From: Dysidea avara
Taxonomy: Eukaryota > Porifera > Demospongiae > Dictyoceratida > Dysideidae
Assembly (NCBI RefSeq): GCF_963678975.1
Contig: NC_089274.1
Span: 27,467,053 to 27,531,052, forward strand
Length of the DNA stretch: 64,000 bases
Direction of reading: 5' to 3'
In this document: positions 151 through 64,000 of the stretch, one piece after another
How positions within the stretch are numbered: position 1 is the first letter of the stretch
How the letters are laid out: every line of letters starts with the position of its first letter
Position numbers and translations under genes: made by a program
Notes under the pieces: model-generated
What the model was told of the DNA's origin: nothing
Database searches by the model: none
What the model saw: the letters and a program-made list of their open reading frames with translations, nothing else

Positions 151-3100
151 TCAGTACTCGCTATATATATTCTCTCTACTGTTGTGAATTGTGCACTTTA
201 TGTTGACTGTTTTGATATGGTTGTTAGAAGATAACTTGGTTAGTGATTGATATGCAGGTGACTGTGAACTAGATGCTTCATATATGACAGCAGAATTGCT
301 ATTTTTGGTCTTGCAACTGGTAGCTGTGGAGAATGTTGTAGAAGACACTCCTATTTCATCGTACAAGTGACCAGCATTTTCACTTGTGTTACTCTTATGT
401 ATTTTTGTTTGCCTACAAAAGAAAGGAGAAACGTTATCACTGCCATTACAACTATCTGGCATTTATTCTAGATATATGCTAACTATCATACATATTACAG
501 TGAGGTATACTGCTGCATACTTTTGCAACTTTCATTTTCTGTGTATCAATGTATATATGTACTACATGGTAATATACCACATGACGTATGCACAGGATAT
601 GTACCTTTTGTGTAAATGGCATATCAGTACAGTGCACAAGCAGCACAAAATCAGCATTGCCATGCTACAGAGAGCTGCAGCAGTTACACTGAGTATTGCT
701 AGCTTGGATATACCATCCATTTTTGAACTGGAGTCCAAATCAGAAAGAGGAAATATAAGAAATAATATCCATCCATGATGTGGAAGATGTACAATTGGGG
801 GGTCTTGGTTGGATATGTTAGTTTTGGCTAGATCAATTAATGTCTTAGCAGACAACTGACCATCATGGTGGACTATAGTGGTTATAGATCCTGTGTCACT
901 GTTTAAACAAGTGAGTTGAGGACTATGCAGGTTGTTATATCCATCACAATTACAGACCAAGCTAAACCACGTCCTCAAAGAGATCACTAGCTCTTTAAAC
1001 AAACTTGCATTGTCCTGTTATGTGTTAGTATGCAAAATTTAATTCAATCACCAAATACAGTACAAAATACAAAATATTCTCACTTGAATTAGGTCTTCAC
1101 ATATATCAAGATTTCCTACATATAGCATAAAATTTTCTCCTGCAGAAAGTTGCATGAAGTGATAAAGTATGTACACATACTCCTATGTAGCTGAATAGTG
1201 ATTGTGTGCTTAGTGTTAGGACAAGTACATAGGCAATAATAGAGCTTGGTGTGGTGGGAGGTGATGTGTGTAGCTATAGACAAGCATACCAGGGGCGGAT
1301 CTAGGATTTATAAAAGGGGGGGGCTAACTCAAGGTACTAATCTCTTGGGTAGAGGTAGCGAAGCACACTTCCCAGCATGTGAAGCATGCTGGAACTAGGG
1401 GGGTCTGGGGCATGCCCCCCCAGGAAAATTTTGAAAAATAGATGCTAAAACACTGCAATTTGGAGACATTTCCACATAAAATTCATAATATTTTCTGCCT
1501 GTAGATATTTTATATACTGCCTTTAGATTATAGGTATGGCTCTCTGAAGCATTTTGCTAATGGAAAAGTTTGGGTAGGTACAGACAACCAAGTACATGAT
1601 GCACCCCTCTCACAATTGCACAACACTGAATAGGTGCATGTTAGAATAATAATGTTGAAAGTGGAAAATTTTGAAATTTGAACAATGCAAGATTGAATCT
1701 GAGAGCATTTTCAATGGAAATTGTGAACCTGAATTAAGTATTGTCATACATATTAACTACACAAGTAGATGGATGAAGCCCTTTAAACAGACCAATTCAT
1801 TTCATTGCATGTATAGGTGCTGGCAGATTTGGAAAAATTCCATAACAGAACCAACTACATATGCATGTTTCCAGTGAATGTTCTATTAGAGTAGTTAGCT
1901 GACTGCTCTATTAGAGTATCTCGATCTTGTAAACCTCCAATGCTAATTCGGGTCCTTGCTGCATAAATTTTAGCATAAATCCACTGATAATACCTTGGAA
2001 AGACGTTTATAAGGTGGTTTTATGAGTATTTGTATTATTAGTGGTCATAAAATTATGCTAAGACAAAATTTCATTACAATGCTCAGCATATTGATCAAGT
2101 AAAGCCTAAATATGAAGGGGGGGGGGGGGCTTCAGCCCCCAAAGCCCCCCCCCCCCCCCCCCCCTGGATTCGCCCCTGCATACTATATATAGATTGTGTA
2201 TGAGCATGAATCCTGAACATATAGATGGTGCATGGGCCTCACCATTATTCTTAGCATGTAAAGTGGTAAGATACTATCAACTATGTGCACATAGATCATG
2301 TACAAACACACTAGCTTGCATAGGCGGCGGAAAGGGGGGGGGGGGGGGGGGGGGGGCTAGGGGGCTAAAGCCCCCCTAGGTCTGCTGAGGGGGGCTTAGC
2401 CCCCCCCCCTCAGAATGATATCACACCTAAATTATCTTTCTTGGAGTGGGGCTGAAAACCGTGATAAAGATCGAGATACTCTAATAGAGCAGTCACTCTA
2501 ATAAAGTAGTCAGTGTGTAGCGAGCTATGTAAGGATTTTTATGTATTTTTATGTAGTTTATCAGCTAGAAATGGTATCTGGTGAGGTGGAAAGCTCTTGT
2601 GAGTTGGTTGTGACCTTTTTTTTATTTTTGGTCTCACTTTACCAAACTATAGAAATAAGTCTGGGTCAGCTCAACGGAGCCCCCCCTCATATCAACTACT
2701 TCCTCCGCCGCTGCTAGCTTGATACAACAACTTTAAACCCAAGTACCCTACAGACCTGTGCATGCTGTAAAGCATTAATAAGTATGTGTGGGTACTGCAA
2801 CATAGCAAATACTACATGTAGATAGTTATACTTACTATTGGCAAAGATGCCATGCTCCCACAAATAAAACTTCTTTTCAACAGATCCATACATATTGGTT
2901 GCTGTACAAGTCAAAGCCATAAACCCTCTCTGAGACAGGAAATTATGATATATTTCAATGGTTCCATTACAATGTAGCTTATAGTTTGAAGAATTCCCTT
3001 GTGCCAAAGCATATGTGTTTGACAAGGGATTTATAATGCTCCATGTAATGTTGGGAGTTGGATAAGCATATGTTACACTACATGTTAACAGAATGTTATT

Positions 3101-4446
3101 TGCTGTTTCTTCATCTTTGACTATTGTTTCAGGTTGCATATGCATTATCGGCTTTGCTATAACAAACAGTGTTGTGTGAGCATAATTTACAATAGTATGA
3201 TATTATTGCTTACAAAGAACTATGATATTGAAAATCTTAAACACACTTCCATATTCATTCTTAGCTTTGCAGACATAGTTCCCACTTTCAGTAATATCAG
3301 CAGTGAAGATCATAACACTATCATTGTTGTTGTGTGGACAAGATGAACAAGTGTCTGGGATGGACCAGTTGTACACTGGATCTGGTGAAGATGACACAGT
3401 ACAATTGAGTACCACTTGTTCACTGACATTCACCAACACTGTCTGGTTTTGTTCAAACAGTAGCACTGGAGGCCCTACATGAATATGCATATTATCAGTG
3501 TGCCAATTTCACATGAAAACCTTACAATCAACTCTCAACAAAATTGTTGCTTTTAATGGATTCCAGTTACCTACAATGCATGTGTATAATCCTTGACTTT
3601 GTTTAGTGACATTATAAATGATTAATCCTGACGTATTTTTACTATAATTTGGATTACCACATGGGTACAAGGTAATGTTATTGTGTTTCCATTTTGTTGA
3701 TGCACCAATGGGCTTAATGGAACAGTTAATAAATTTATCTTGATAACGTAATGCAGATTTTTCTTCATTAATTCTAGAACTGCTACTGTAGACAAAGAAT
3801 GAACCAACTGCATGGGAATATGATATTATTAAGTAACAGAAATTTAGTGATGATAACATTACCTATGTTAATTTGCAGGATAACTGCAGCTTTGATGCTG
3901 TGGTTGCTCATTAGACGGCAGGTGTACTTCCCTTCATCAGATTTTTGGCGATTAGTCAAAGTCAGTATGCTACCATTGACTATAGAGAAATATTATACCC
4001 AGCATCATTGTATTGCATTGCTTTCTGGAAGATTAACTATATACACATCCTCTTTGCATGTGCATGTACTTGTTAGATAATTAATACTACAACATTTTTG
4101 TTTTGCACAAAACTATAGTGCAAATAATTCATACCTAGTGTATGTAGAAGCACTTGATTCCTCACCATATATCCTAGCAGCACTGTTTGTATTGATCTCC
4201 TGATAATTTGGGTTGAGCCATTCTACAGCTTCACGATTATGATAACAGAATAAATGTAACTGATAATTACAGGTTGTCATTGCAGTACAAGTTATGTTTG
4301 GACCTTTTGGTATTATTTTCAAGCTGATGGTTGTGCTGATAGAGCATCCTACAAGGTGCATATACGTACATACACTAGTATCACAATGCTATATTACAAT
4401 ATGATACTCTACCTAACAAAAGAATAGAAATGTATCTTTGAAACAT
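151..4446 (-). CDS. Gene A: Ig-SEA-TM receptor with tyrosine-motif tail (9 exons)
   Basis: Predicted single-pass cell-surface receptor of 641 residues. Exons on the minus strand: 4413-4446, 4166-4348, 3863-3979, 3526-3807, 3214-3474, 2836-3156, 1084-1139, 605-1014, 151-412. They join at GT-AG sites with consistent phase (1 up to exon 7, then 0, then 2) and sum to 1926 nt. Exon 1 gives a hydrophobic signal peptide starting MFQRYISILLL. Exons 2+3 form one Ig-like domain (WLNP, then DEGKYTC). Exons 4, 5 and 6 each form one Ig domain (for example SQGLYTC and SGNYVC). Exons 7+8 form a SEA-like domain with TGSIT, then a transmembrane helix ending HLHKR. The tail carries HLYDEI, VIYEAS, PAYQSL and a C-terminal NIYSEY, and lacks the YxxLxHH ending of its paralogues. 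Intron 6 (1.7 kb) holds two mobile elements. Function is inferred; the ligand is unknown. Confidence 0.85.
605..1139 (-). other. SEA-like domain plus transmembrane exons of gene A
   Basis: Exon 7 (1084-1139, 56 nt) encodes a first strand with LYVGN and a cysteine. Exon 8 (605-1014) encodes an amphipathic helix with W, a CNCDG turn, PQLTCL, then TGSITTIVHHDG, a further helix and HGWILFL before the membrane helix. Strand, two helices, strand, G-S-I turn, strand and helices is the order expected for a SEA fold. The G-S-I turn sits where SEA domains self-cleave. The family assignment comes from this pattern only. Confidence 0.6.
1290..2178. mobile_element. Non-autonomous element, TIR CAGGGGCGG, 5-bp TSD CATAC
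   Basis: The ends read CAGGGGCGGATCTAGG and CCTGGATTCGCCCCTG, which are inverted. CATAC is found directly outside both ends (1285-1289 and 2179-2183). It lies in intron 6 of gene A and encodes nothing recognisable. It contains the CTCTATTAGAG motif at about 1880-1925 and, near its right end, a G-run/C-run pair (2117-2165). Related left ends occur near 26930, 27922 and 46093. Confidence 0.7.
2117..2165. repeat. G-run / C-run inverted pair
   Basis: A run of about 14 G is followed by CTTCAGCCCCCAAAG and a run of about 20 C. The two runs can pair into a hairpin, or the G-run alone could contribute to a quadruplex. It lies in intron 6 of gene A at the right end of the CAGGGGCGG element. Tract lengths in assemblies are often unreliable. 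Confidence 0.7.
2319..2713. mobile_element. hAT-like MITE copy 1 (intact), 8-bp TSD CTAGCTTG
   Basis: This 395-bp element has ends CATAGGCGGCGGAAAG and CTTCCTCCGCCGCTG, roughly inverted. An exact 8-bp duplication CTAGCTTG lies on both sides (2311-2318 and 2714-2721). An 8-bp target duplication is typical of hAT transposons. It contains a poly-G tract (2333-2356) and a GATCGAGATACTCTAATAG segment. It sits in intron 6 of gene A. A second, interrupted copy spans 28995-39201. Confidence 0.75.
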
Positions 4447-8845: not shown

Positions 8846-11800
8846 TTATTGGCCATGGTGGAAGAGCTTATCATATTTCTCTCCTTTCTGAAATTGATTA
8901 TTTTTATTTTCTTTTGCATTCTCTACTTCATCATCGATCTGATAGTCATTACCCTTCTCATTCCTTTTCTTAGTACACACAGGGTTGTCATAAAGTGGTG
9001 TGGATAATGGGCAATAAGCTGGTGGCTGCATTCCATTCATTTCAAATATTATTTTATTGTCTGTAGGACTCTTGTTCACATCACAATCAGTGTTTCTAGT
9101 TTTTAATGCTGAAAACCTATCAACATCATCATACATGTGAGGACTTTTTACACTGATTTGATCTGTGGTATCCGATTTCCTGAAAAACATCATGTCAACA
9201 TTGCTACAATTATTATTTAAGTAAATTGAAAGCATGCGTACCTTCTATGCATCCCATAAACTACTGCAGCAGCAATGCACAATATTGATACTATTAATAC
9301 ACAAACAGCTCCAACAGTTACACCAATGATAATCGATATTGATACATCAGTGATTTCACTGCTGTGGGAGGGAGTGGGGGTATTGTTGGGGAGAGGAGTA
9401 TTTTTGGTGTCATTAGGTAATTCAAGAAATAATATCCATCCATGTTGTGAAAAATTAGCAGTGTTGTTAGTAATGTTAGCTACTGCCAAATTAATTAGTT
9501 GCTGAGCAGACTTGACACCCTCATGACGAACAATACTAGTAATGTAACCAGTGGTGTGGTTCAGACAGGTCAGTTGTGGAGTATACAGGTTATTATACCC
9601 ATTACAATGACATACTGAGTTAAACCATTCCCTCAATGAAGCTAACAGTTCTGCAAACAATCCATACTTATCCTGAAACAACAGAATATACCATTATACG
9701 TATGTTAATAAAGCAAGTTGAATATGTACCTTTTTAACCTCTTGGCAGCTCATGAAATTTGTTATGTACAGAACAAAGTCTATTTCTATAAACAAGAGTT
9801 TATGTAGCTAAGTACAAATTACATATTTGCATACGTATAAGTTAAATGAGGGTGAGACAGTTTTACTATGCACTCTTGATATAAATGAAACACTTAAAGG
9901 TGTAGAAGTATGTCCGCACATGTGCGTACACTGGTACACATATGTAGATACAGTTATAATTTAGTGCAAGCACTTATGGTAGTTTGCACTTTACTTGAAA
10001 CCTTCTGTGTATTTACATGTACTAGCTGTATGGTGTAGCATATACTGTTGGGCACTTAATATGTGTGTCAACCTTTGAGTGACAATTGTGTGATGATACA
10101 GAGAAGACTGGTGATGAGGTCATCTTGATGTCAACATCACAGTTATGATAATATAAAGTACATTTCTAATGCACATTATGATATCTTGCATTACAGCCCT
10201 CAGAGCTCTTCTTTCAATCATCCAAAATAGGATTATACCTAACTAAGAAACAAATGCTATATTTTTCAGGACTGTGACAAATAACTTCATAATAACAACA
10301 TTGATTTTAAGTACCACATTCGGCTTTGCAATCACACATAGCAACAATTATGTCATAGAGTAATTATGCAACACCAACATCTTCTGACAATGCATGTAAA
10401 AATGATATATACGCACTGAGTAGTATTTCTGTAAACAGCAGTATTGTTGATAACTGATGTTGTTGATACTGAAAAACTACAGACATGTGTACATGGAGCA
10501 CTATGAAAGCTGTACAACTACTGTACACAGTAAACACATATGTATTCTCAAACAATAGTGTCGTACTTGCTTTAAATGCAGCATCCTCCCACAAGTGATA
10601 CACCATTTGGGCAGATCCATACAAATTCTCCACTGAGCACATCACATTCAAGTAACCTGCTTCAGATAAGAAGCGATGGTAAATTTCAATAGTAAAATTC
10701 TTATGCAAAGAATAGTCTCTTTCAACACTGGAGTTCTTTATTACAATGTAGTTATCGGATAATACACTCTTAATACTCCAAGTAACGCTAGGTACTGGGT
10801 ATGCATATTTTAGATCACATGTTAATAAGATGTTCTCCCTCTCCTCTTTAATGATTGTATGAGACTCAGTTAACACAATTGGTTTGGCTATAGTAGTAAA
10901 CGTAAACATGCAGTCATATCATTTATTGTACATACTTTGTATGGTCTCATGCATGTTGGTAAGAAAAACAAAACAAGTCATAGAAACACAGTTTACCATG
11001 GGTGAATTTCTGATGAATACATGATATCAAAAAGGCTGATAGGAGGGAATATAATATATTTATGTGTAACCTATAATTATGATCACAAGAACTGCCTAGT
11101 AGGCAATTCTTCTGATCATCTATTAGTTGTACGTTTTAATATAAAGTGTATCTATATTATGTATGTGCACATGCAAATCCTTACAAAATACTTTGATGTC
11201 AAAAGTCATCATGACTCTTCCATACTCATTTCCAGCTTCACAGACGTATTCCCCACTATCAGTAATATCAGCTGTGAAGATCATAACATTATCACTGTTG
11301 GTGTGTGGACAAGATGAACAGGTGTCTGGGGTGGACCAGTTGTACACTGGATCTGGTGAAGATGACACAGTACAATTGAGTACCACCTGTTCACTGACAT
11401 TCACCAACACTGTCTGGTTTTGTGTAATCGGTAATTCTGGAGGCCCTATAAGTATACAGCAGACATAATACCTTGACCTATATATTATATTGTCAACAAT
11501 TACTTACAGATGAGAATCACGTTTATTGTAGCAATTAATGGATCTCCATTGCCAATTAAGCATTTATATATGCCTTCATCAGCTTTAGTAAAATTACGAA
11601 TTATCAGTCCTGAAGTGTTTTGACTGTATTTAGGATGACTATCAGTATTCAATAGTCGATTTCTGTAGTCCCAATTTGTGGAATTGGAAAAATTAACAGT
11701 TGGTGCGAATGAACAGTTAATAAAATTATCTTGATAGCGTAATACAGTTTGTTCATCAGAAAAAAATCTGCTGTTGGGATTGCAGCTGTAGGTAAAATGT

Positions 11801-15859: not shown

Positions 15860-16115
15860 ACATTGCAAGTTATTCTGTAGGGAATTCAGCTACAAACAAG
15901 TCACCCTGTAGTCAGATCAGCTAGAAGAAGGTACCTAATAGAGAGTTCAGCTACAAACAAACCATCATGTAGAGAGTTCAGCTGCAAACAAATCACCCAG
16001 TAGAAAGGTCCACTATGAACAGATCACCCTGTAGAGAGTTCAGTTAGAAACAAGTCATCCTGTAGAGAGATCAGCTAGATGTAGAGAGTTCAGCTACAAA
16101 GAAATCACCCTGCTT
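15860..16115 (-). repeat. 31-bp satellite, short arm
   Basis: About eight degenerate units of the form AGAGTTCAGCTACAAACAA plus TCACCCTGTAG, which is the reverse complement of the unit at 17620-19160. Confidence 0.75.
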
Positions 16116-16529: not shown

Positions 16530-16562
<33 letters not shown>

Positions 16563-17619: not shown

Positions 17620-19160
17620 TTGCAGCTGAAAACTCTACAGTAAATGTGTATGTACATAGCTGAAAATTTCTACAGGGAGACTCATAATGTAGCTTTACTC
17701 TTAGATGACATGGTGAACGATTTGTAATCGAACTCACCACAGAGTGACTTATAACCTAGCTAAACTCTACAGAAAGAATTGCAAAATAGCTGAACTTTCT
17801 ACAGGATGATTTTCTTGTAGGTGAATCCTCTACAGGGTGAGATGTTTCTACTCTCTACAGGGTGGCTTGGTTCTATCTGATCTTTCTACAGGGTGATTTG
17901 TTTCTAACTGATGCTTCTGTGGAGTGATATGTTTCTTTCTACAGGGTGATTTAAAATGTACATGTAGCTGATTTTTCTACACTGTGACTTGTTTCTAGCT
18001 GATCTCTCTACAGGGTAATTGTTTCAAGGCTATTCAAGCTGATCTCACTACAGAGTGACTTGTTTCTACCTGATGTGCAGGGTGGTTTGAAATGTAGCTG
18101 ATTTCTCTACAGGGTGACTTGTTTCTACCTGATGATCTCTATGCACAGTGATTTGTGTTGAGCTGATCTCTCTACAGGGTGACATGAAAAATAGTTGAAA
18201 TATTTGCAGGGTAGCTTGTTTCCAGTTAATATCTCTACAGGGTGATTTGTTTCTAACTGAATACTGTACAGGGTGATTTGTTTCTAGCTGAACCGTCTAT
18301 TGAGAGATTTTTTTGTAGCTGACCTCTCCACAGGGTGACTTGTAATGTAGTTGGATTCACTACAGGGTGTACCCTGATCAAGCTGATCTCTCTAAAGGGT
18401 GCAGCTGATCTCTCTACAGAGTGATTTATTTCTACTATAGCATGATTTGTTTCTAACAGATCTTTCTATAAGGTGACTTGTTTCTAGCTGAACTCTCTAT
18501 AGGATGCTATCTGATCTTGCTACAAGGTGACTTGTTTCTAGCAAGCTGATCTTTCTACGGGTGACTTGCTTCTAGCTGAACTCTCTACAGGGTGACTTGA
18601 TATTATCTGATCTCTCTACAGGGTGACGCACTTTTAACTGATCTTTCTATGGGGTGATTTGAAATGTCACTACAGGTGACTTGTTTCTAGCTATGTAGCT
18701 GATCTTTCTATAGGGTAACTTAATTGTTTCTAGCTGAACTCTCTACAGTGCAACTTGATTCTATCTGATCTCTTTACAGGGTGACTTGTTTCTAATTGAT
18801 CCTTCCACGAAGTGATTTGTTTCAAGCTAGTCTTTCTACAGGGTGATTTAAAATGTAATTGATCTTGCTACAGGGTGACTTGTTTCTAGCTAGCTGACTC
18901 TACAGGGTGACTGGTAGCTGATTTCTCTACAGGGTGACTTCTTTTTGGCTGAACTCTCATTTTGTTTCAAGCTGATCTCTCTACAGGGTAACTTGAAAAC
19001 TAGTTGAACTCTTTACAGTGTAACTTGTTTATAGCTGATCTCTCTACAGACTGGTTTGTTTCTAGCTGATCCCTCCTACAGAGTGACTTAATTGTTTCTA
19101 GCTGAACTCTCTACAGATGACTTGATTCTACATATCTGATCTGTCTTCAGGATGATTTGA
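17620..19160 (+). repeat. 31-bp satellite, long arm
   Basis: About 1.5 kb of degenerate tandem units close to CTCTCTACAGGGTGACTTG plus TTTCTAGCTGAT. I counted a spacing of 31 between consecutive CTACAGGGTG motifs. This is roughly 45 to 50 units with frequent indels. The units lack unique spacers, so it is not a CRISPR array. Confidence 0.8.
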
Positions 19161-19750
19161 TCCTACTATGGGGGTGATTTGGTCTTTATACATGACACAC
19201 TATCATGTGTATTGATGTAAATTATAGTAATAATTACTAAGTGGTCTGCATTGATCAAGAGCTGTGGGGGTCAGTGACAGTCATGAGTGTTATATGAACC
19301 TAACTAGAATCGTATACAGAAGAGCATTTTCATTTCATTTGTTAAAAAATAAAAATAAAATCCTAGCAGAAGTAATATGTAGGATAGTGCTGCAGATGCA
19401 AGTTTTCATACCTAGCAATAACTGGAGGATTCTTTTTAGTGTTACGTGCAGTGACTGTTCTATTAGAGTATTTGGCTCAATTTTTATGAAATTTTGTTCG
19501 TGTTGGGATATATTTTCATCTGTTACTGAAGCAGATTATTAATGCTAAAAATTTGGTATTAACAGTACTCATTATCAATAACATGCTTAAAAAGAGAAAA
19601 AGCATTATAAACTATCTTGGTGTTGATAACACAACTAGCTAATATGAATGCTTTACTACCCATAGCTGTGTATTAACTTTAGGAATGTAAAATAATTAAT
19701 TGCATGCCACATTAACAGTAGCAGGACTCCATTTCATAAGATGCTTTCAG

Positions 19751-42720: not shown

Positions 42721-43456
42721 GTAGCTAACTACATATGTACGAATATACTCATGATTGAGTTTGTACATTAACAAATATATATATATATATATAGCTACTG
42801 CACCCAGCACACATATACACAATTCAAATCCACTTAAATGGGGTTTTTACTAACCCCTGTCTTAAAAATATCAAAAGTTTCTCTCCAAACTGTCCAGGAC
42901 ATTAGTCAGATCAAAACACTCTAATAGAACAGTCACCTATTTTACAATTGGAGCAGTCAGAAAATCTGAGGGCCACGCCCAGGAATATTCACTTCCATAA
43001 GACTATTACATGTGAATTTTGTTGATTATACAACGCTTAAAACCTGATTACATGTGATAATAAATTGGCTGATCGTTATATTAGAGTAATTGACTGCTCT
43101 ATTAGAGTATTTCGATCTGACTAATGTCCTGGACATTTTGAAGAGAAACTTTTGGCATTTTTAAGACAGGGGATAGTCAAAACCCTGTTTAAGTGGATTT
43201 GGATTGTGTATATGTGTGCTGGGTGCAGTAGCTAGGCTGCTATGTCAGAGAAGCCTAAATGCAATGTAGCTATTCGGATAGAAATCAAGGTGCGGTCATC
43301 GTGCATGTGTCTATTTACTACTGAACGGCAGCTGATGCTCTCAATGTTCATAAAAATAGCTTTGAATTTGATATAGGTAACTATTTGATTTGCACGAGCT
43401 TCACATGTGGCCGAATTTAAGATTGCACGACAGAGGTGACTTTGGAGCTTTGTAAG

Positions 43457-45092
43457 CTCCTAACAACTTTGCTGATGTCTCCCAGCTCCTAACAACTTTG
43501 GATGTTCATAAAGCACCAGGACCAGACAAAATCCCATCACACTTATTACAATTAGCCTCTCAAGAAATTGCTCCAGTACTAACTCTGATCATTAATTCAT
43601 CACTTCATCAAGGAGAACTTCCCATGGACTGGAAACATGCTAATATTGTATCTGTATTCAAAAAAGAAGACAAAACACTTGCACCCAATTACAGACCAAT
43701 ATCGCTAACCAGTATCAGCTGCAAGATCATGGAGCGCCTAATTCACACTCATCTCTTTTCTCACCTAGAATCAATAAATATCCTCTGCGACCAACAACAT
43801 GGTTTCCGACCTAGAAGATCATGCGAATCACAACTTATTACTACTGTAAACAACATTTCTAAATCTCTTGACTCTGGCTTTCAAATTGATATCATTTTTC
43901 TAGATCTATCTAAGGCATTTGATAAAGTGCCCCATCACCGTTTATGTAACAAAATTAATTATCCTACTATGGTATTAGAGGGGAACTACTAACATGGCTA
44001 CAAAATTTCCTCACCGGTAGGCATCAACAAGTAACTCTTGACGGTTCAATCAGTGAGTCACATGCAGTTAACTCGGGTGTCCCCCAAGGAACAATCTTAG
44101 CCCCTCTATTATTTTTATGTTAAATTAATGACCTCCCATTATCAATCAATGCCAACATTGGTCTGTATGCTGGCGATACCATACTGTATTTATACTGTTA
44201 TTCACTCCACATCCGACTGTTTATCACTTCAAAATGATCTCAACTCCTTATCACAATGGGGCACTAGATCTGGTATGTTTTTTAATCCTGATAAAAGTGT
44301 ATTCATGAGAATCACTCGTAAACACAATCCGATCACGTACAACTACACCATTAATGACATCTCTATCCAAGAAGTTTCATCTACTAAATATTTAGGAGTT
44401 ACAATCACCAATGACTTGTCTTGGTCCACACACATTACTAACATCACATCCTAAGCTCTATCAGTCAAAGCATTCCTACAGAGAAATCTTAAGTCCTGCC
44501 CAACTCAAATCAAATTGAAATGTTATAATGCCATGATAAGACCAATCTTAGAATACGCCAATCCTGTCTGGTCCCCTCACATCAGAAGAGACATTGATAA
44601 GCTTGAACGAGTACAGAGGCAATCTGCCAGATTCATTATGGCTGACTTCTCGCATTTCAACAGCGTAACTAACATGCTCATTGACCTTAACATTCCCAGC
44701 TTAGAACACCACAGACAATTATCTAGTATCACCCTCCTCTACAAAATTGTTCATAATCTCATTGATATATCTCCAGTTGATTTAATCCCTGTCACTTCTA
44801 ACACCAGAGGACATGATCAAAGATTTCATCATATCTATGCAAGGACCAATCAGTACAGTAATTCATTCTTTCCTAGATCAATTAGACTGTGGAATTCACT
44901 CCCACCTGACCTAATCCAACAACAATCATTACAAATTTTTAAGTACCAACTGAAATTATTATTACTTTCCCCTACCAATCAGTAATCCCATAGTCAAAAT
45001 CATATTGTAAAACATTTTGTATGCATGTTTCATATGTGCGTTAATCCTCAAACTGAGGCTGCACATTTTTGGAAAATAAAAAAAAAAATAAA
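43457..45092 (+). pseudogene. 5'-truncated LINE with reverse transcriptase remnant
   Basis: Frames at 43498-43992, 44128-44454 and 44515-44985 cover a non-LTR reverse transcriptase from the palm to the C-terminus. Motifs include KAPGPDKIPSHLL, NYRPISLTSISCKIMERL, GFRPRRSCESQL and FLDLSKAFDKVPHHRL. The catalytic box reads YAGD rather than YADD, followed by STKYLGVTITNDLSW, RPILEYANPVWSPH and RSIRLWNSLPPDLI. There are frameshifts near 43985 and 44195 and a stop near 44455. An A-rich tail lies at 45072-45090. The endonuclease domain is absent. It looks CR1/Jockey-like in general; the clade was not resolved. Confidence 0.85.
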
Positions 45093-47576: not shown

Positions 47577-50487
47577 TTATTTATGGTGAGCTAATTTGCT
47601 ATAAGGCTCATGCTCAATTGTATCAGTCATTATTTTGATACAATTTTCATCTGTAATACTTCTGGTATCTTCCTTACTTCGGTAATCATTATATTTCTCA
47701 ATGCTGGAGGCACTACAACTTTTATACTGTGGTATAGAAAAGTAGCGTTCGTCGGTACTTCTGATGTCTTTTTCAGTATACCAATCATTGCATTTCTCTG
47801 TGCTGGAGGCACTACAGCTTTCATAATGTGGTTTAGAATAGTAGCAATCTTCATCCTTGATGCTTCTGGCATCTCTTTCAATATGATAGTCATTACATTT
47901 CTCCACACTGGAGGCACTACAACTTTCGTAACGTGGTTTAGGTAATGGCTGATAGGAAGGTGGTTGAACATGTGATGTATCAAATACAACCTTGTCACTT
48001 TTAGGACTGGGAGTTGCATTCTTGACTGCAAGAGGAGGAATCATTGTAAACACACTAAGTTCATCATATATATGACCAGGGTCTTTGTTATCACTGCTCA
48101 TTGGTTTTTTAGGTATTTTAGGAGATCTATAAATAAAATTTATAGATAAAACATATACAGAAATGAAATTTACATGATTTTCTAATGTACACATCACAAT
48201 AAATTCTCACCTTTTATGAACTATCCAGATTATGACAAGGATGCACAACAGTATAACTATTAGAGCACATGGGACACCAACCACCAGTCCTACTATAAGT
48301 GGTACTGGGTGACTGTCACTAGATACTTTTAACGTGTTGTTGTTCACAGGTTCCCATTCACAATCAGGACTAAGACATAGTACCCATCCAGATTTGAGGT
48401 ACATCACTGAAGGATCCCTCTCTTGTATATTGTCCTCTATCAAGTCAATCATCATTTGTGTAGTATAGTTTCCATTAGATTCAATCACTGCAGTAATAGA
48501 AGCTGTTGAGTTATTCAAACATGTTGGTGCCAATAATTGAAAATTACAGTTACATACAGACCCAAGTAATGCTTCAATTTCACTTTGAATTATGTTGCTG
48601 CAGTTCTAACAAAAAAGATCACATGTATAATACTATGCACACATGAATTTAGTTATAGAATTAACAAGTGCACAATTATTAAAATATAATGAAGATTTGT
48701 GACAACACAGAGTGATTGCATTCACAAATCTGTGGAACTAAAGGGCAAGAATTAACTGGAAAGTATAGTTTTAAAAAAAAGTTTGAAGTGGTCAATATAC
48801 TCCCAGTCTTTTTAGTATACTACAACCTGAGCATAGTAAATGCAACTTACATTGATGACTACTTGGCAGTTCATTAAGTTTTTTACATAAATGATGAAAT
48901 CCTGTCCAAGTACTCCAGACCCTAAGCCACTGCCATTGTATTCACAGTCTGGGCTAAGACAAACTACCCATCCAGATTGAAGTTTAACCTTTCTTTCTTG
49001 AAGTTCAGATTTCACTAAATCAATTAACATGTTAGCAGTTCTGCTACCATCAGGATGAACACTAGTGGTGACACTGCCAGTGGTACCATCAACACAAGCC
49101 AGTTCAGGATCATACAAGTTGTTGTGACCATTACATTCACAAACAACACCAAACCATTGTCGCAATTCATTAAAAACTTCATCTGGCTCCTAACGGTTAC
49201 CTGTTTGTTATTCCTGTACATATATGCATGTTTCACTTACATTGGTAGCATCTTGACAGTTTTGAACTTTGATATATAGTAAAAGTGTTTGTTCTATCAT
49301 ATAGCATAAACAACATCAACAGATAAACAAGGATGTAATAATATATACTCAAACATGCAATGCTAATAGAGTATATATGTCATCCATACATGCTTAAACA
49401 TCAACAAACCTTGATTAAAGACCTCATGATCCCAGAGATGAAATACATTTTCAGCAGACCCATACTTATTGGCTGCTGTACACATGAATATTAAGTGGTC
49501 ACTTTCTAATATAAATCGATAATACACTTCAACACTTCCATTATTGTGCATTATGTATTTCCCTGTAGAATTTTGTTCTAATTTCTGATAAACTCTGGAT
49601 GATTTGGCCATCATATTCCAAGTAATTTCAGGAGATGGATGAGCATAGTAAACACCACAGCTAAGCATCACATTGCTATTCTCTCTGTTGTAATCTCTGA
49701 AAATTGGCATAATGTTCCTACTAATCAGTGGTTTTGCTGTGTGTGAGAAGTATGCATTGATAGCTAATTTCCAAAATTGTGTAATTTATAGGTGTTGCAA
49801 AATGTATGCACTATATTTATTGTCTGTAGTTTATTTTCACAGCAACAATGATGTATGAAGAGATGACAGATATCTACGTTTATTGCTACTTACACATGAC
49901 ATGGACAGTAAACCTTCTCTGTGTGCTTCCATATTCATTGCTAGCTTCACAGACGTATTTCCCACTATTAGTAATATCAGCAGTGAAAATTATAACACTA
50001 TCATTGTTGGTGTGTGGACAAGATGAACAAGTGTCTGGGATGGACCAGTTGTACACTGGATCTGGTGAAGACGACACAGTACAATTGAGTACCACTTGTT
50101 CACTGAGATTCACCAAAACTGTCTGGCTTTGTGTAATTGTTAATTCTGGAGGCCCTAAGTTAAGTAGACATCTAGTTACACCAGACAATTGTGACAACAC
50201 ATACTTACATTTAACCTTTACTAACACGGTTGCCTTAAGTTGGCCAACAGAACATGTGTAATTTCCTTCATCCTCTACAGTCACATTCTTAATCATTACA
50301 CCAGATGTATTTTGGCAGTATTTTGATGTTTCATTGACCCACAATGGTTCGTTATCAAGTTTCCATGAAACAGTGCTGTATTCTGCCCCGTAATTAACTG
50401 AGCAGTTTAAAAATACATCTATTTTTCTTAGAACAATTTTCTCTTGTACAATGACCAGCTTGTCACTAAATGCAAATGATGGATAAA
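47577..50487 (-). CDS. Gene D: Ig-Ig-Ig-SEA-SEA-TM receptor, 5' exons not found
   Basis: Exons: 50209-50487 (Ig, DEGNYTC), 49894-50154 (near-invariant Ig), 49410-49736 (Ig, VMLSC, FMCT), 49241-49293, 48851-49189, 48211-48605 and 47577-48129, joined in consistent phase. It corresponds to exons 4 to 9 of its paralogues. No 34-nt signal-peptide exon or first Ig exon pair was found up to 52 kb. The SEA-like unit is duplicated: the first (49241-49293 plus 48851-49189) has TTGSVTT, the second (end of that exon plus 48211-48605) has TASIT. Both have SGWV and CLSPDCE. The membrane helix ends IVHKR. The tail is 184 residues, with HIYDEL, PSYQPL, three tandem 33-35-residue repeats and a terminal YSKLAHHK. 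Visible coding is about 735 residues. Confidence 0.8.
47640..47930 (-). repeat. Triplicated 33-35-residue repeat in the gene D tail
   Basis: Three tandem coding units start Y(E/K)SCSASS, continue with EKCND(Y/W) or EKYNDY and end with an acidic, arginine-serine part such as RSIKDEDC or RSITDENC. Each has two to four tyrosines. Genes B and C hold one diverged unit at the same place (KGNDYQIDDE and TLNDYRIVDDEN), so gene D has expanded it. Confidence 0.8.
48211..49293 (-). other. Tandem SEA-like domains of gene D
   Basis: Exon 48851-49189 ends with DFIIYVKNLMNCQVVIN, which is the first strand of the next SEA-like unit. That shows the duplication was of a whole domain with its phase-0 intron. 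Unit 1 keeps G-S-V. Unit 2 has A-S-I, so its predicted cleavage motif is altered. Confidence 0.65.
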
Positions 50488-52050: not shown

Positions 52051-52058
52051 TGGACATT

Positions 52059-52667: not shown

Positions 52668-52670
52668 AAC

Positions 52671-52688: not shown

Positions 52689-52961
52689 AAGAGAGAAGGA
52701 AGAACGACTTGTACTCTACCTTAAGTGAATTTTGTCTCGTCCTCTCACCGCGGTTGTTGGGTTAACCCAGACCGCTTAAACCTGAATTCCTTGGTACTGG
52801 GTTAACGGTACCCGTTAAGGTGACTTGTTGTGTTTCCTTGGTGATCTGTTGTCCTTTATACTCTCTTGTTTCCCCTAGAGTACCTTTGTGTGGTGGACAG
52901 ATACTGTACCTCGTAGTGGGCAATACTTGCAGTTACTCACTTAGTCGATTTGTTGGCAATT

Positions 52962-54937
52962 ATGTCGTCCGCATTTATATCTGAGCCATCCTCCAAGGCT
53001 CTGCGGAAGCTCAAGCGTGCTGAATTGTTGGAAGTGGCTGGTCATTACAAGGTAACATGCTCTAGTTCAATGAAAAAGGAGGAAATATGCTGTGTGATCC
53101 TGGAACACTTACGAGAAGAAGACATCATCTCTGAAGAAGAAGATGTGGGTGAGCCAAGTACCAGTAGCACTACCCTAGAACTCAAGAGGTTAGAGTTTCA
53201 GGGGAATGAAAGGTTAGGGAAAGCGCACTCCGTATGAAAGAACTTGAGATTAAGGAAAAAGAGCTGGCCATACAGATGAAGGTAAAGAAGTTGGAAGCTA
53301 AGATGATTTCATCACTGGAGTCTGTCAGCAAACCAAGTGGATTCGACATCAGTAAACATGTTCGCTTTGTTCCACCATTCCAGGAAAGAGGAATTGATAA
53401 GTATTTCTTGCACTTCAAAAAAGTGGCCACTAGTCTGGAATGGCCTGAGGATGTGTGGACCTTCCTGCTGCAGAGTGTGCTGGTGGGCAAGGCATGAGAG
53501 GTTTATGCAGCTCTCTCTCTAGATCAGAGCTCAGACTATGATGTAGTGAAAACCTCGATATTGAGTGCTTATGAACTGGTGCCAGAGGCCTATCAACAAA
53601 AATTTAGGGAAAGTAAGAAGGAAGACAACCAGACATATGTAGAGTTTGCCCGTGACAAGGAAAGATTGTTTGACAGGTGGTGTGCCTTAATGGGTGTTGA
53701 CAGTGACTTCAAGCGACTTCGAGAACTGATGCTCTTAGAGGAATTCAAGACATGCCTACCCACTGAAATGAAGATGTATCTGGAGGAACAGAAAGTTACC
53801 ACCTTACACCAGAGATATGATGACTATTCACTTACTCATAAGTCTTTTAATGATGTAAGACATCCCGATACAAAGAAAACAACTGAGGCAAATGGCACCA
53901 AGGATCCTTCATGGTCCAATGGCTCTGGAAGGCCTACCAGATTTCCTTCTGGTCCCACGTGCTTTTATTGTAAGAAGAAGGGGCATGTGATGGCAGAGTG
54001 TCGCACCTTAGAGAGGAAGAATCAGATGTTTCCCAAGCCAGAACTATTGATCAAGACAGTGACTTCTTTCCCCATAGCTAATGGTTTTGGACAAGGTGCT
54101 GAAAAGGTGGAGGATAGCGAAGTAGCCAGGTCGTACACACCATTCATATCCAAGGGCTCAATGTCTCTTTTGGGCCAGGCTGGTAAATCTCCTATTCAAA
54201 TTCTCCAAGACACAGGTGCAACCCAGACTCTGATATTGGGCAGTGTCCTCCCCTTTTCAAGCAAGTCTTCCAATGGCAACAGTATATTGCTTCGAGGGAT
54301 TGAGCTAGGAACGGTACGGGTACCTCTCCACCAAGTAGAGCTGTCATCTGAGATTGCTTCAGGGTCTGTTGTTGTGGGTGTGAGACCTTCCCTTCTTGTA
54401 CAATGCATTGACCTTATTTTGGGGAATGATATAGCTGGTGGTAAGGTGGAAGCTAACCCCTGTGTGGGTGTTGTCCCCGATTCTAGCCGTTCTGATGTTA
54501 ATGAAGACATCCCTGGATTGTTCCCAGCATGTGCAATCACTCGTGCCATGGCCAATAAGTTGTCACTGCAAGTAAGGCCTGAGGGTGGTGGGCAAATTGT
54601 GGAAGCCACCGGAAAGCCCGAAGAGGCATTGCCAGGTGGTGTGCCAACGGCGTCTAACACTGCAACTTGTAATGAACCAGGGAAACAGAGCAGTGAGTTG
54701 GAAGCTATAGAGAACTCTGAAATGTCCCCAGAGGAATTGGTGAAGAAGCAAAAGGATTATCTGGAGCTACAAAGGTTCTGGGAGCAAGCCATTAGTGAAG
54801 AGGAAGCTAGCAAGGTACCTAATTGTTATTATATGAAGAGTGATATGTTAATGCGAAAATGGAAGCCCAGGGACATTTCGTCATCTCATGAATGGAAAGT
54901 GATCCACCAAGTGGTAGTTCCCCTCATATCGCCCTGA
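52962..54937 (+). pseudogene. gag-protease region of the Gmr1-like element
   Basis: The N-terminal part has a SAP-like helix pair (LKRAELLEVAGHY, then KKEEICCVILEHL), followed by a Lys/Glu coiled-coil stretch. A capsid follows with LMLLEEFKTCLPTEMKMYLEE, similar to the SCAN domain core, then a CCHC knuckle at 53960-54001 (CX2CX4HX4C). Downstream, QDTGATQTL near 54209 is the aspartic protease motif D-T-G. Breaks: a frameshift near 53220 and an in-frame TGA at 53495. The frame 53546-54937 (463 codons) is otherwise open. Confidence 0.8.
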
Positions 54938-55960
54938 GACACTAAGATTAGCTCATGAAATGCCTTTGGCAGGCCACTTGGGAGTCAACAAGACCTACAG
55001 AAGAATTTTAAACCATTTTTTGGCCAGGGATTCAGAAAGATGTTCAGAGTTTCTGTAGGTCCTGTGTTACATGTCAGAAGGTGGGAAAACCCAATTGTAA
55101 ACACCCGTTAGCCCCATTAAAGCCTATCCCTGCTGTTGATGAACCATTCAGCCAAGTTGTCATTGACTGTGTTGGCCCACTTCCGAAAACTCGAGCAGGC
55201 AACCAATACCTACTCAAAATAATGTGTCTATCCACTCACTTCCCCGAAGCAGTGCCCCTCAGAAACATTAAGGCTCCCAATATTGTGGAAGCTCTACTAA
55301 AATTCTTCACCTTTGTTGGACTACCACGAAGCATACAATCTGATCAGGGTTCCAATTTTATGTCTGGGGTCTTCCAGCAAGTCATGTATCAGTTAGGAAT
55401 CCGTCAATATAAATCGACTGCCTATCACCCACATTCACAGGGGGCAATGGAGAGGTTCCATCAGACCTTGAAAAATATGCTAAGAATGTATTTCCTGGAA
55501 CAGAACAAGGACTGGGGTGAGGGAGTCCACATGTTATTGTTTGCGGTACGCGACTCTGTCCAGGAAGCATTTGGTTTCAACCCTTTTGAATTAGTATTCG
55601 GGCATACACCTCGTGGACCTCTTAAAGTGTTGAAGGAAGTTTGGCTAACACCAGATGACACTCAAGATGTGATCACTCGAGTGACTGATGTCCATCACAG
55701 ATTGAAGAAGACTACACAGCTTGCTCGGAAAAACCTACATGCAGCTCAAGGCACCATGAAGACATGGTATGACAAGAATGCTCGTCAGAGGACATTTAAT
55801 CTGGTGATATGGTGTTGGTATTGTTGTCAATTCATGGTCATCCCCTGCAGGCTTGATATTGTGGCCCCTTCATGATAGAGGAGAAAGTTAATGAAGTAGA
55901 TTATGTGATCAAAACCCCTTGGGCATAGGAAAGCAAACCAACTTTGTCATGTCAACATGC
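54930..55960 (+). pseudogene. Integrase region of the Gmr1-like element
   Basis: An H2C2 zinc finger (GHLGVNKTYRR, then SCVTCQK) lies at about 54950-55080 across frame breaks. The core at 55081-55875 has the triad D29, D88 and E124 of that frame, with 35 residues between D88 and E124 (DD35E); see VVIDCVGPL, SDQGSNF and HPHSQGAMERFHQ. The end has a frameshift near 55795, then a HVNMLKAYYERE segment typical of the GPY/F module. It lies upstream of reverse transcriptase. Confidence 0.85.
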
Positions 55961-56965
55961 TAAAAGCATATTATGAAAGGGAACCAGTAACAGCAGTGGC
56001 TCTAGCTACACAGAGGGTGGTAGAGGAGTCTGATACTAGCTCAGAGGCAGAGTGTCCAGTTAGTATGGTGGTGAAGGGTCCTAAATTACAGAATTCTGAA
56101 GTTCTAGCCTCTCTGGACCAGAAACTTGCTCATTTGCCTGACTAGGAACAAGAGCTGCTCAAAGCCCTGATTAAAGAGTTCTCAGAGTTATTCCCGGATA
56201 CTCCTGGAAGGACACAGATTATGTATCATGATGTGGATGTGGGGCAGGCCCAACTTATCAAGCAGCACCCCTATAGAGTGAATCCGGTAAAATTGAAGGC
56301 TATTTGCGATGAAGTAAAGTATATGTTGAAGAATGGCATAATAGAACCAAGCAGTAGCCAGTGGAGCTTGCCGTGTATCCTGGTCCTCAAGCCAGATGGA
56401 AGCTATAGATTTTGCACAGACTTCAGGAGGTGAATGCGGTGACAAAGGCTGATTCTTACCCTATTCTGAGAATTGATGATTGTATTGACTGAATAGGGCA
56501 TACAAAACACATTAGCAAGTTCGATCTCTTGAAGGGTTATTGGCAGGTGCCACTGACTGAGCGGGCCAGGGAGGTGTCAGCTTTTGCCACTCCTGATGAT
56601 TTGTACCAATATCGTGTAATGCCCTTTGGGATGAAGAACGTGCCGGCAACCTTTCAAAGGATGATCAATGGTGTAATTGCTGGATGGATGGTTGTGAGGC
56701 ATATATTGACGATGTGGTTGTACATAGCAACACATTGGATCAGCACATTGAACAGGTGAAGGAATTTCTCTCCAGACTTCGAGAGGCCAAGTTGACAATC
56801 ATCCTGTCCAAGAGTGAATTCTGTCAGGCCCGAGTGGTTTTCTTGGGTCATGTTGTGGGTCAGGGAGAGGTTGCACCTGTGATGGCCAAGGTACAAGCTA
56901 TTTCCAACTTTCCGGCTCCAAGCAGCAAGCACGAACTAATGAGGTTTCTTGGAATGTCGGGATAA
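55957..56965 (+). pseudogene. Reverse transcriptase region of the Gmr1-like element
   Basis: Motifs in order: HPYRVNP, MLKNGIIEPSSSQWSLP, LVLKPDGSYRFCTDFRR, KGYWQVPLTERA, YRVMPFGMKNVPATFQRMI, YIDDVVVHS (catalytic box) and FLGHVV. This is the Ty3/gypsy pattern. Breaks: TAG at about 56143, a frameshift at about 56431, a stop at about 56491, a further frameshift near 56680 and TAA at 56963. Confidence 0.85.
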
Positions 56966-57007
56966 TACAGGAAGTTCTGTCAAAACTTTTCAGTAGTAGC
57001 TGAACTG

Positions 57008-57584
57008 TTGACGAGACTGCTGCAGAAACGTGAACCTTTCATATGGTCTGCAGACTGCCAAGCAGCCTTTCTCAAGATCAAATCCTTACTTTTATCGGTG
57101 CCAGTACTGATGGCACCAAATTTTGGTAAGCCCTTCAAGTTCATGGTTGATGCTAGTGATGTGGGCGGTGGGGCTGTGATGTTACAGGAGGGCGAAGATG
57201 GTGTAGACCACCCACTGTGTTACCTTTCATGGTTGATGCTAGTGATGTGGGCGGTGGGGCTGTGCTGTTACAGGAGGGCGAAGATGATGTAGACCACCCA
57301 CTATGTTACTTTTCACATAAGTTCAATAGGCATCAGAGGAATTACTCAACGAAACTCTAGCCCTGTTGCTCACCCTACAACATTTCTGTGTGTATTTGGA
57401 AGCTCCTGTGAATGAAATATTGGTTTATACGGATAACAATCCCCTAGTGTTCATAAATAAGATGAAAGACAGAAATCAAAGGTTATTGCATTGGAGCCTT
57501 GCTCTACAGGAGTTCAGTCTGAAAATCTCTCACATCAGGGGTAAAGATAACATCATCAAAGGTGCCCTGTCTAGAGAGATGTAA
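57008..57584 (+). pseudogene. RNase H region of the Gmr1-like element, with 86-bp duplication
   Basis: Starts with AELLTRLLQ and FIWSADCQAAF, then FMVDASDVGGGAVMLQ (first Asp), YTDNNPLVFI and LSREM at the end. An 86-bp tandem duplication (57141-57226 and 57227-57312) repeats the VDAS segment. Because 86 is not a multiple of three, it shifts the frame. Confidence 0.8.
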
Positions 57585-60770: not shown

Positions 60771-61984
60771 CTTATGCTTGTATATATATATATAGTTATA
60801 TATGCACAGTAGGTCTATTACAATTTTGTGTCACAGTCATAAACATTTGTAAAACTTGCATATGTGTGACACATATGTATGTTTTACATATGTGTGTGAC
60901 AAAATCACTAAACACCACAGTTAAACATACATTGCTATTCTCTCTTGTTGTAATCTCTAAAAAATTGGGGTAGTGTTTCTACTAATAAATGATTTAGCTG
61001 TGTGGGCAAGAAGTGTGCAATGATGACTAACTGCATAATTTAGTGCTGTAAAGTGTATCTACTATATTACCATCTCTATAGTTTATTTTCACAAAAAATA
61101 ATGATATATGAAGAGAACAGGTATTTATGCTTACTGCCACTTACATATGACATTGACAGTAAACCTTCTCTGTATGCTTCCATATTCATTGTTTGCTTCA
61201 CAGACATATTCTCCTCTATCAGTAATATCAGCAGTGAAGATCATGACACTATCATTGTTGGTGTGTGGACAAAATGAACAAGTGTCTGGGATGGACCAGT
61301 TGTACACTGAATCTGGTGAAGATGACACAGTACAATTGAGTACCACTTGTTCATTGACATTCACGATTACTGTCTGGTTATGTTCGAAAAGTAACTCTGG
61401 AGGCCCTAAAAGAGAAAATACACACACTTGCACAAGTGGAAGCACTGACTTAATAAATGTATAAATGTAGGGGAAATGACACAAATAGTAATACACACAT
61501 GCATACATGTTTGCTACACAAGCCATGCATATGATACTAATCTTACACACAACATGTAGTGATATGGTAGCATTTAATGGATTTGTATTGCCAACCAAAC
61601 AACAATAGCTCCCTTGATCATCTTCAGTAACATTATGAATTGTAAGTCCTGAACGATTCTGACTGTATTTTATTGATTCTGTGTTATTCTGATGGCCATT
61701 AGAATCATAGTTTGTTGGCAATAGTTCATTCTTGTGCTTCCACAGTATGGAAAAAGATAAATTATGCAGTTCAACTGAACAGTTAATAAATTTATCTTGA
61801 TGACGCAGTGCTGTTACTTTGTAATAATAATTGGGACTGGTGCTGTAGATAAAGTATGGTTCCACTGTAAGATAAAGAAATACGCAAACTGAAATCAGTA
61901 TATATATATATATACCACTTTCACACCTCACTTCAAAGGGAAGAGAAGGTGTATAAGTGGTATAATAGCACTGCTAGCAGTGCT

Positions 61985-62799: not shown

Positions 62800-63267
62800 A
62801 GTGTTAACAGTATTCACTACTTTAGTTTAATCATGGCTAGTAAAGTAAGTACTTTAGTGTAGTTGAATCGCCTTTACATTGCCGTTTTGACACCTGGCGC
62901 GATGTCACACACTCGTAGTGACTGGGCGTGGCGCGTAATTGGCTAGGCCATTATAGCGCTGTAAACATATTCACTGCTTTAGTTTATTCATGGCTAGTAT
63001 AGTAAATACTTTATAGTGCACTTAAGCTTCATTATGAGCTGTTCAGCTCGTATTTGGGCTTCCTGTGTTTAATTGCGTACCCACGATCGAAGCGATCTGC
63101 ATGCTCGTGACGATACACTTACGTTCGGCCTCTCAGCAGTGCCTTGTCGTTGCTCTTACGACGTTACCCACAATCGAAAGTCACATGGTCCCATATAAAT
63201 ACACTCGCAAAGCATTCCTGCAGTTTCCATGTACACTTGCAGGTGATTCACCCAAGTGGAATATATT

Positions 63268-63380
63268 AGTTGTAACATGGGCACTTGTGATTTGCCTGAA
63301 ATATACACACTCGCACTCGGGCTGCGCCCTCGTGCTCGTGTGTATATTCCAGGCAAATCACTCATGCCCATGTTACAACT
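63268..63380. repeat. 113-bp palindrome in intron 3 of gene E
   Basis: GTTGTAACATGGGCACTTGT at the left returns as CATGCCCATGTTACAAC at the right, and GATTTGCCTG, AATATACACAC and GAGCACGAG-type segments pair to a tight GGGCTGCGCCC apex. Arms of about 53 bp differ at few positions. Confidence 0.8.
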
Positions 63381-64000
63381 ACTACATATATATTTATATA
63401 GTTGAATTTCCAACAACATGCAGCTCAAGATTAAATAAGGAGTACTCAAAATGTATATATACCTCTACAAGGCAATACTATGTTTGCAAACAATATTTCA
63501 TTATGTTAATATGACTATTAGTTAAACAAGCACATACCATCAACTATTATCATCACTGTTGCATTAATACTGTGGTTAAGCACACTTCTGCAAGTATATT
63601 GTCCCTCATCTGATTTTGAACGATTGTAAAATCTCAAATTGGTGAGTAGAGCTATGTACTCCACTACAGTATACATGTTTGTGTTATAAACAAATACAAT
63701 GTACAGATACATCAGCTCAATAAGTATCACATACCATAAATCCTTGATTGACTATTATTGGTGATCACCTCAGAATTAGGATCAAGCCATTCCATTGAAT
63801 CTTGATAAAAGCATGATATCGTTTCTGCACCACAGTCAGTAGGAAAAATGCAGTCCACAAATTTTGGAAATACTTTTGGTATGGAGGTGGAACTAACAGT
63901 ATCTCCTGTGAATGTATATTAACATAGTTAAAATTACACATGTAAACTATAAGGACACAACATACACGTAATATAATATGCTAACCTATTACAATGATGA

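Follow-up and report, generated by a model that had tools for sequence, protein, structure and literature searches.

Near-uniform silent sites in one Ig exon of a clustered, mosaic receptor gene family in the sponge Dysidea avara

One exon, exon 4, stands out in a clustered family of Ig-type receptor genes for cell-surface proteins of the sponge Dysidea avara: its silent sites are nearly homogenised across genes, unlike those of the other exons. Among 14 copies of this exon, which encodes the third Ig domain, all 91 pairs showed pS below 0.4 (median 0.23), as did 74/74 pairs drawn between the groups that we set by hand for this comparison (median likewise 0.23). For the other exons, 6 of 190 between-group pairs in total fell below the same value (e1, 0/14; e2, 0/14; e3, 0/40; e5, 0/32; e6, 6/70; e7, 0/20). 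The five exon 4 copies in the window, the 64,000-nt stretch of D. avara DNA analysed here (C3:27,467,053–27,531,052), lie on the minus strand at 3214–3474 (P1), 11185–11445 (P2), 24184–24450 (P3), 49894–50154 (P4) and 61145–61405 (P5). In 39 distant pairs, the 100-nt intron flanks of exon 4 had mean identities of 0.60 and 0.58, compared with 0.57 for shuffled sequence and 0.83 for the exon, and at the level of nucleotide identity the flanking introns look unrelated between distant copies.

Selection acting on the DNA or RNA, through a splicing signal or an overlapping function, might also conserve exon 4 in the absence of conversion. Antisense open frames were found to overlap exon 4 in all five window copies, and the conservation began at the splice acceptor, both in line with such selection. 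However, the antisense frames may just follow from the conserved sense sequence, no comparable silent-site constraint was detected in the remaining coding exons of these genes, and a breakpoint in P5, described below, marks recombination within exon 4. We regard this explanation as very unlikely. Gene conversion confined to exon 4, combined with cassette exchange, is the simplest account, with conversion as the presumed cause. The family would have grown by tandem duplication and exchange of exon cassettes, and repeated conversion would hold exon 4 uniform among its genes. We hold this account as a whole, an Ig receptor cluster of Dysidea-like sequences with cassette exchange and a conversion-maintained exon 4, with moderate confidence; it builds on computed gene structures, the clustering of the SEA-like exons, mosaicism and the low silent divergence of exon 4. 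Homogenisation of a single exon points to a testable mechanism by which receptors could stay alike in one domain and diversify elsewhere.

The genes are mosaics, with at least one exchange breakpoint located inside exon 4. P5 resembled P3 until exon 4 and P4 after it, and the switch from P3-like to P4-like sequence within its exon 4 copy gave a maximum chi-square of 73.9 (0/2000 permutations). The annotated protein P0004 shared e1/e2 at 100% with P0001, e3 at 79% with P2, and e5 at 97% with P0005. A more specific proposal, that exon 4 is a dedicated recombination hub, a stretch of ~165–260 bp held almost identical by conversion limited to the exon, in which crossovers would join variable outer Ig cassettes (signal to e3) to variable inner ones (e5, SEA-like module and tail) and so diversify an individuality locus, seems unlikely to us. 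Outside exon 4, the close paralogues P4, P7 and P10 showed dN/dS of 0.39–0.47, indicating purifying selection, and no significant nonsynonymous excess was detected in six pairs tested. Purifying selection in these paralogues is unlike the expectation for a hypervariable allodeterminant, though compatible with one.

The initial annotation had described five head-to-tail paralogues on one strand that share their exon structure and vary in domain number, tail motifs and intactness. Splice-consistent models recovered five paralogous exon sets, every one on the minus strand and with common splice phases and exon-by-exon layout; domain number, tail length and intactness indeed differed among the copies, as illustrated by two SEA-like modules in P4 and a decayed e5, but the sets probably represent four genes, P5 and P4 being one. 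P1 (151–4446) comprises a signal exon at ~4446–4413, e1 4348–4166, e2 3979–3863, e3 3807–3526, e4 3474–3214, e5 3156–2836, e5b 1139–1084, e6 1014–605 and e7 412–151; this model agreed with the annotated D. avara protein P0002, showing zero substitutions over 616 residues, and P0002 lacks 25 residues of e1 relative to it. P2 (8846–12320) comprises a signal exon at 12320–12287, e1 12233–12057, e2 11982–11869, e3 11807–11508, e4 11445–11185, e5 10887–10567, e5b 9785–9730, e6 9672–9242 and e7 9179–8846, and P3 (19751–26188) a signal exon at 26188–26155, e1 26074–25898, e2 25826–25701, e3 24908–24591, e4 24450–24184, e5 23464–23138, e5b 23021–22966, e6 22912–22509 and e7 20081–19751.

When the 550.8-Mb assembly was searched with the SEA-like exon, as the initial annotation had proposed for sizing the family, 17 matches at E ≤ 0.01 emerged (21 candidates scored), and 17/17 fell on the minus strand within C3:27,467,809–27,785,640, a single 318-kb stretch. 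The array thus extends past the window, at least as far as C3:27,785,640, and the 100 kb to the left of the window contained two weak e1 matches only (E 0.009). The window appears, with fair probability, to be the left end of a clustered Ig-type receptor family. A 51-kb repeat may represent two haplotypes. The annotated proteins P0003–P0005 are encoded on the same chromosome as the cluster and are annotated without the SEA-TM-tail part, which implies that the Ig part extends to more members of the family than have the receptor form. Database searches revealed no relative outside Dysidea-like sequences, though these searches were insensitive, one of them having failed to return P0002, a relative already known and of suitable length; by this weak test, the family so far seems limited to Dysidea-like sequences.

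P4 (47577–50487) comprises e3 50487–50209, e4 50154–49894, e5 49736–49410, e5b 49293–49241, e6a 49189–48851 (SEA-like 1), e6b 48605–48211 (SEA-like 2 and TM) and e7 48126–47577, in which a 105-bp tandem repeat of 2.5 copies (47684–47941, minus strand) lengthens the tail. P5 (61145–64000) comprises e1 63905–63735, e2 63663–63538, e3 61864–61547 and e4 61405–61145, with a signal exon starting at window-relative position 64019, just beyond the window, and behind its e4 lies a decayed e5 remnant (60909–60988, minus strand) with a broken frame and a stop. Exon searches in the window turned up neither e1 nor e2 for P4; for P5 they turned up no tail, TM or SEA-like module and no functional e5. These complementary absences, together with the two-unit layout of P7, which lies just outside the window and corresponds to the annotated protein P0001 (86.6% identical to P4 over the length of P4), indicated that P5 is probably the 5′ half and P4 the 3′ half of one gene, separated by a long intron that carries an LTR element; joining P5 and P4 would give the same two-unit layout. 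Alternatively, P5 could be a 5′ fragment on its own and P4 a distinct gene whose start went unrecognised: they are 10.7 kb apart with the LTR element between them, P5 formerly had one more exon, as its dead e5 shows, and a hydrophobicity scan placed a signal-like candidate between them at 59710–59605. This candidate decides nothing, because the scan missed true signal exons; P7/P0001 is annotated as one gene, and the missing P4 e1/e2 also speak against separate genes, a reading to which we give about one chance in four.

From the N-terminus, the predicted proteins carry a signal peptide and at least four Ig domains, followed by the juxtamembrane SEA-like module, a single TM helix and a tail rich in tyrosines. 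The Ig exons are symmetric (phase 1-1). Pfam Ig cut-offs were passed by 3/3 scanned stretches containing exon 3 or 4 and by several stretches each of P0003, P0004 and P0001, and P3 exon 5 scanned alone gave no Pfam Ig match. Foldseek comparison of a low-confidence P0002 model (mean pLDDT 46) with the PDB gave 844 matches at E ≤ 0.001, and the best 50 of these were all titled as Ig-domain proteins. By both profile and fold, the family belongs to the Immunoglobulin superfamily.

The assignment of the juxtamembrane module was less clear. In P3, this module and the TM helix span 22509–23021 (minus strand), with e5b coding for the first predicted strand and e6 for the rest. The element order predicted by a weak model (helix-strand-strand-helix-strand-(strand); pTM 0.53, mean pLDDT 54) fits the name “SEA-like” used in the initial annotation, and fold searches were run on this model, which is too weak to decide. 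Pfam gave no match to SEA (PF01390) at E ≤ 10 in four spliced window segments or P0001, and the only match below 0.001 in the four window segments was MAPB1_N at the P4 double module (E 1.1e-4, 21.9 bits; cut-off 27); a SEA profile search of the genome returned 0 matches, and zero in its controls too. Autoproteolysis of SEA domains occurs at G-S between two strands. Among 14 distinct SEA-like modules, the putative cleavage site read G-S in 3 (P1, P3 and P4a) and any residue followed by S in 8, with T at the S position in P11b and P12b and Y, L or V in P2, P6, P11a and P12a. The G-S signature is not general across these modules, and SEA membership is unproven.

The window tails were mutually 25–38% identical and kept several motifs: H-x-Y-[DE]-[DE]-[ILV] in 7/7 distinct tails, PPxY in 6/7, and conserved YxxPhi-type motifs. 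After phosphorylation of its tyrosines, the tail would signal via SH2 and WW partners. An ITIM or ITAM in the tail is typical of Alr receptors. Strict ITIMs occurred in 0/4 window tails and in 1/7 distinct tails scanned (P11), and the ITAM core in 1/6 distinct tails scanned (P6, outside the window); the motifs cited in the initial annotation are mostly not strict ITIMs or ITAMs. The P3 tail has a V-containing ITAM look-alike. The rest of that description stood: the receptors are clustered, rich in Ig domains and single-pass, their tails carry tyrosine motifs, one exon is decayed, and the host is a sponge.

The outer Ig domains may bind variable cell-surface or microbial ligands, and the exon 4 domain may provide a common interface for within-family pairing or a shared partner. 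Microbe-sensing innate receptors that combine activating and other tails with one conserved Ig domain, a set-up resembling that of CEACAM paired receptors, are a tentative possibility that we consider well short of probable. The homogenised Ig exon accompanied by differing tails (the ITAM core in P6 and not in the other five distinct tails) is consistent with this reading, bovine CEACAM conversion affects exons common to ITIM and ITAM-like members (PMC7042247), and a D. avara Ig-superfamily transcript, linked to the present family by superfamily alone, responds to microbial elicitors (PMC6208332). About equally doubtful is an ordinary adhesion or tissue-organising Ig family, expanded in Dysidea and lacking an immune or self role: the best structural neighbours of the low-confidence model were adhesion or guidance Ig proteins such as neurofascin, contactin, Robo and Sidekick, purifying selection fits, and the NCBI names of the family proteins are generic; but ranking of Ig chains says little on function, and adhesion proteins with a structural role would not usually show such modular turnover and low similarity between members. 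An allorecognition complex, in which polymorphic allodeterminants decide fusion or rejection like cnidarian Alr1/Alr2, is in our estimate improbable. The architecture, clustering, decayed exon and mosaic exchange agree with it, as do the clustered single-pass Ig genes with likely pseudogenes of Hydractinia Alr (PMC11067881) and the specific, repeatable sponge graft responses described as pointing to a polymorphic genetic system (PMC5450542); the purifying selection seen among P4, P7 and P10 and the mostly non-strict tail motifs argue against it. For this single assembly, a self/non-self role is a hypothesis.

Among known systems, Botryllus offers a likeness in fuhc and fester, described as recognition genes at or near the histocompatibility locus, and their architecture differs from that of the Dysidea receptors. 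Ig-TIR receptors and aggregation factors are other recognition or adhesion systems of sponges (PMC12909245, PMC5450542), and a profile scan found no TIR domain in the Dysidea frames scanned. Sponge grafts are rejected with high specificity, and the relevant passages of PMC11999971 and PMC5450542 name no receptor locus; a compact Ig receptor cluster in D. avara, a species emerging as a model in which to study symbiosis and innate immunity (PMC12909245), offers a concrete locus to genotype. The Dysidea genes share with Hydractinia Alr the organisation as clustered single-pass Ig-superfamily genes, with likely pseudogenes in the Alr clusters (PMC11067881), and differ in their SEA-like juxtamembrane module, at least four Ig domains, one homogenised Ig exon and window tails devoid of strict ITIMs; no protein named Alr was among the database matches listed, in searches that need shared 5-residue words. 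Mammalian CEACAM genes also encode clustered Ig receptors with conversion in exons common to differently tailed members, but there conversion was described around the outer N-domain exon, whereas in Dysidea the third of four Ig domains is uniform and the outer ones diverge (PMC7042247). An Ig exon homogenised among members with different tails was found here as well, a likeness of pattern alone; an almost identical building block joined to diverged and swapped parts also occurs in certain recognition systems.

Splice-consistent gene models built on the minus strand of the window gave one layout for each full gene: a short signal exon whose 3' end is in phase 1; e1 and e2, which together encode the first Ig domain; e3, e4 and e5, each encoding one Ig domain (phase 1-1); a juxtamembrane module, whose first predicted strand comes from e5b (53–56 nt) and whose remainder is encoded by e6 together with the transmembrane segment (TM); and e7 (phase 2), which encodes the tail. 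The models of P2 and P3 were complete, and the P1 model showed no substitutions relative to its annotated product P0002, an isoform without 25 residues of e1. The variation in domain number and intactness described in the initial annotation was borne out, as P4 contains two SEA-like modules and only a broken e5 remnant was found downstream of P5 e4. A search for e1 and e2 of P4 found neither.

All five exon sets (P1–P5) occupied the minus strand as first proposed, but five is probably too high a gene count. In the adjoining gene P7 (annotated product P0001, 1012 aa), 86.6% identical to P4 across P4's length, the order is signal, e1, e2, an extra Ig exon, e4, e3, e4, e5, e5b, two SEA-like modules, TM and tail. 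Parsimoniously, P5 and P4 would constitute a single gene of the P7 layout with an LTR retrotransposon in a 10.7-kb intron; given a signal-like candidate between them, they may instead be two genes. The retrotransposon pieces in the P4/P5 intron lie in separate frames at window positions 52917–57584 (+), in the order SCAN-domain match, integrase, reverse transcriptase and RNase H; integrase ahead of reverse transcriptase is an order reminiscent of Gmr1-like elements. Another reverse transcriptase frame, probably non-LTR, occupies 43456–44985 (+; RVT_1 match at 43456–43989), with dispersed repeats around it at 27–28, 42 and 45 kb, and two minisatellite arrays with a similar 31-bp unit lie in opposite orientation at 15866–16112 and 17787–19165.

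Sizing the family genome-wide with the P3 SEA-like exon, as had been suggested, yielded 17 matches at E≤0.01 in the 550.8-Mb assembly (21 candidates scored), and 17/17 fell on the minus strand of C3:27,467,809–27,785,640, upholding the clustered array. By our own grouping of exons these represent 11 SEA-bearing genes (P1, P2, P3, P4, P6, P7, P6d, P7d, P10, P11 and P12). In tblastn searches of the flanks, the minus-strand array continued to the right, and the left 100 kb contained two weak e1 matches (E 0.009) and nothing else. P6/P7 and P6d/P7d form a repeat with two family genes per copy, spaced ~51 kb apart and 97.6–98.9% identical in clean blocks (97.9–98.9% in the blocks at C3:27540658–27561389 and 27592049–27612842), reflecting either recent duplication or unmerged haplotypes. 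P6d e2 contains a stop, and the P10 tail is interrupted.

Exon 4, encoding the third Ig domain, was uniform across the five window copies (74–81% protein and 82–90% DNA identity in 10/10 pairs), whereas other exons mostly showed 18–53% protein identity, the exceptions being e1–e3 of P3/P5 (61–87%). Silent divergence (pS) of exon 4 was below 0.4 in all 91 pairs among 14 copies (median 0.23) and in 74/74 pairs between groups set by hand; the corresponding between-group counts were 0/14 for e1, 0/14 for e2, 0/40 for e3, 0/32 for e5, 6/70 for e6 and 0/20 for e7. Purifying selection on the protein would not lower silent divergence so. The conserved stretch starts at the splice acceptor and fades ahead of the donor, and in 39 distant pairs the 100-nt intron flanks showed identities of 0.60 and 0.58, compared to 0.57 for shuffled sequence and 0.83 for the exon. 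The simplest account is repeated gene conversion confined to the exon, which would homogenize exon 4 across the family.

P5 is P3-like in e1–e3 and intron 3 and P4-like from exon 4 onward, with the best breakpoint inside exon 4 (P3-like at 54/61 informative sites before it and 9/69 after; 0/2000 permutations as extreme). P0004, encoded on the same chromosome, combines e1/e2 of P0001 type (100%), e3 of P2 type (79%) and e5 of P0005 type (97%). Cassettes on either flank of the uniform exon 4 have thus been swapped between genes. Among these paralogues of one assembly, dN/dS outside exon 4 was 0.39–0.47 for P4/P7, P4/P10 and P7/P10, indicating purifying selection, and 0.83 for P3/P5 and 1.01 for P6/P6d, neither significant; such values count against strong diversifying selection between paralogues.

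The element order and GS[VI]T-like turn of the juxtamembrane module originally described as SEA-like resemble a SEA domain, but no Pfam SEA match was found for the module, and a genome-wide profile search was likewise without a match, also in its controls. The only Pfam match below 0.001 was MAPB1_N in the P4 double module, below its cut-off. The structure prediction on which the fold searches rest was weak (pTM 0.53), and G-S was present in 3/14 modules; SEA membership was not assigned.

In the tyrosine-motif tails, H-x-Y-[DE]-[DE]-[ILV], which resembles Src-family SH2 ligands, was present in all seven distinct tails scanned and in ≤0.2% of shuffles (5,000 for each of six tails). PPxY, a motif resembling WW ligands, occurred in six of the seven, with SPAY in its place in P1, and five tails had [EQ]xYx[KR]L at the C-terminus. 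A strict ITIM was found in one of seven (P11), and an ITAM core solely in P6 among six distinct tails scanned (YEDLDKFSPPLYEEI; C3:27545369–27550196, minus strand), with a V-variant in P3.

The closest annotated proteins to the window genes came from the demosponge Dysidea avara, placing a family of Ig receptors in a sponge, on C3, as envisaged. The window corresponds to C3:27,467,053–27,531,052. Of 7,490 candidates compared with P3 residues 200–668, five reached E≤0.001, and every one was a D. avara protein. An alignment search scoring the 7,991 candidates with most shared words gave 37 proteins: the same five from D. avara, P0006 (matching the P5 e3–e4 frame of the window), four jgi-source proteins (P0007–P0010) and a further 27 with Ig domains, of which 26 carry names from other animals. 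With the SEA-TM-tail part of P0001 as query, P0001 itself was the sole hit at E≤0.1 among 2,583 candidates, but the search also missed the known relative P0002, of fitting length, and so says little about absence; restriction of the family to Dysidea-like sponges is thus likely, though on a weak test. In the family members P0003–P0005, also encoded on C3, the annotated C-terminus is another domain in place of the SEA-TM-tail part; these may be secreted proteins or truncated gene models.

In the D. avara genome paper, I-set sequences number 637, V-set sequences are put at 594 in the text and 564 in a table, and NLRs are covered; the word "allorecognition" has 0 occurrences in its main text (PMC12909245). 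No published account of this cluster appeared among the titles and abstract openings listed, a set mostly outside subscription journals. The compact receptor cluster and its unusual evolutionary signature are real. The cluster is a candidate, at this stage, for an allorecognition complex, and its sequences evolve in the manner of a diversified recognition family.
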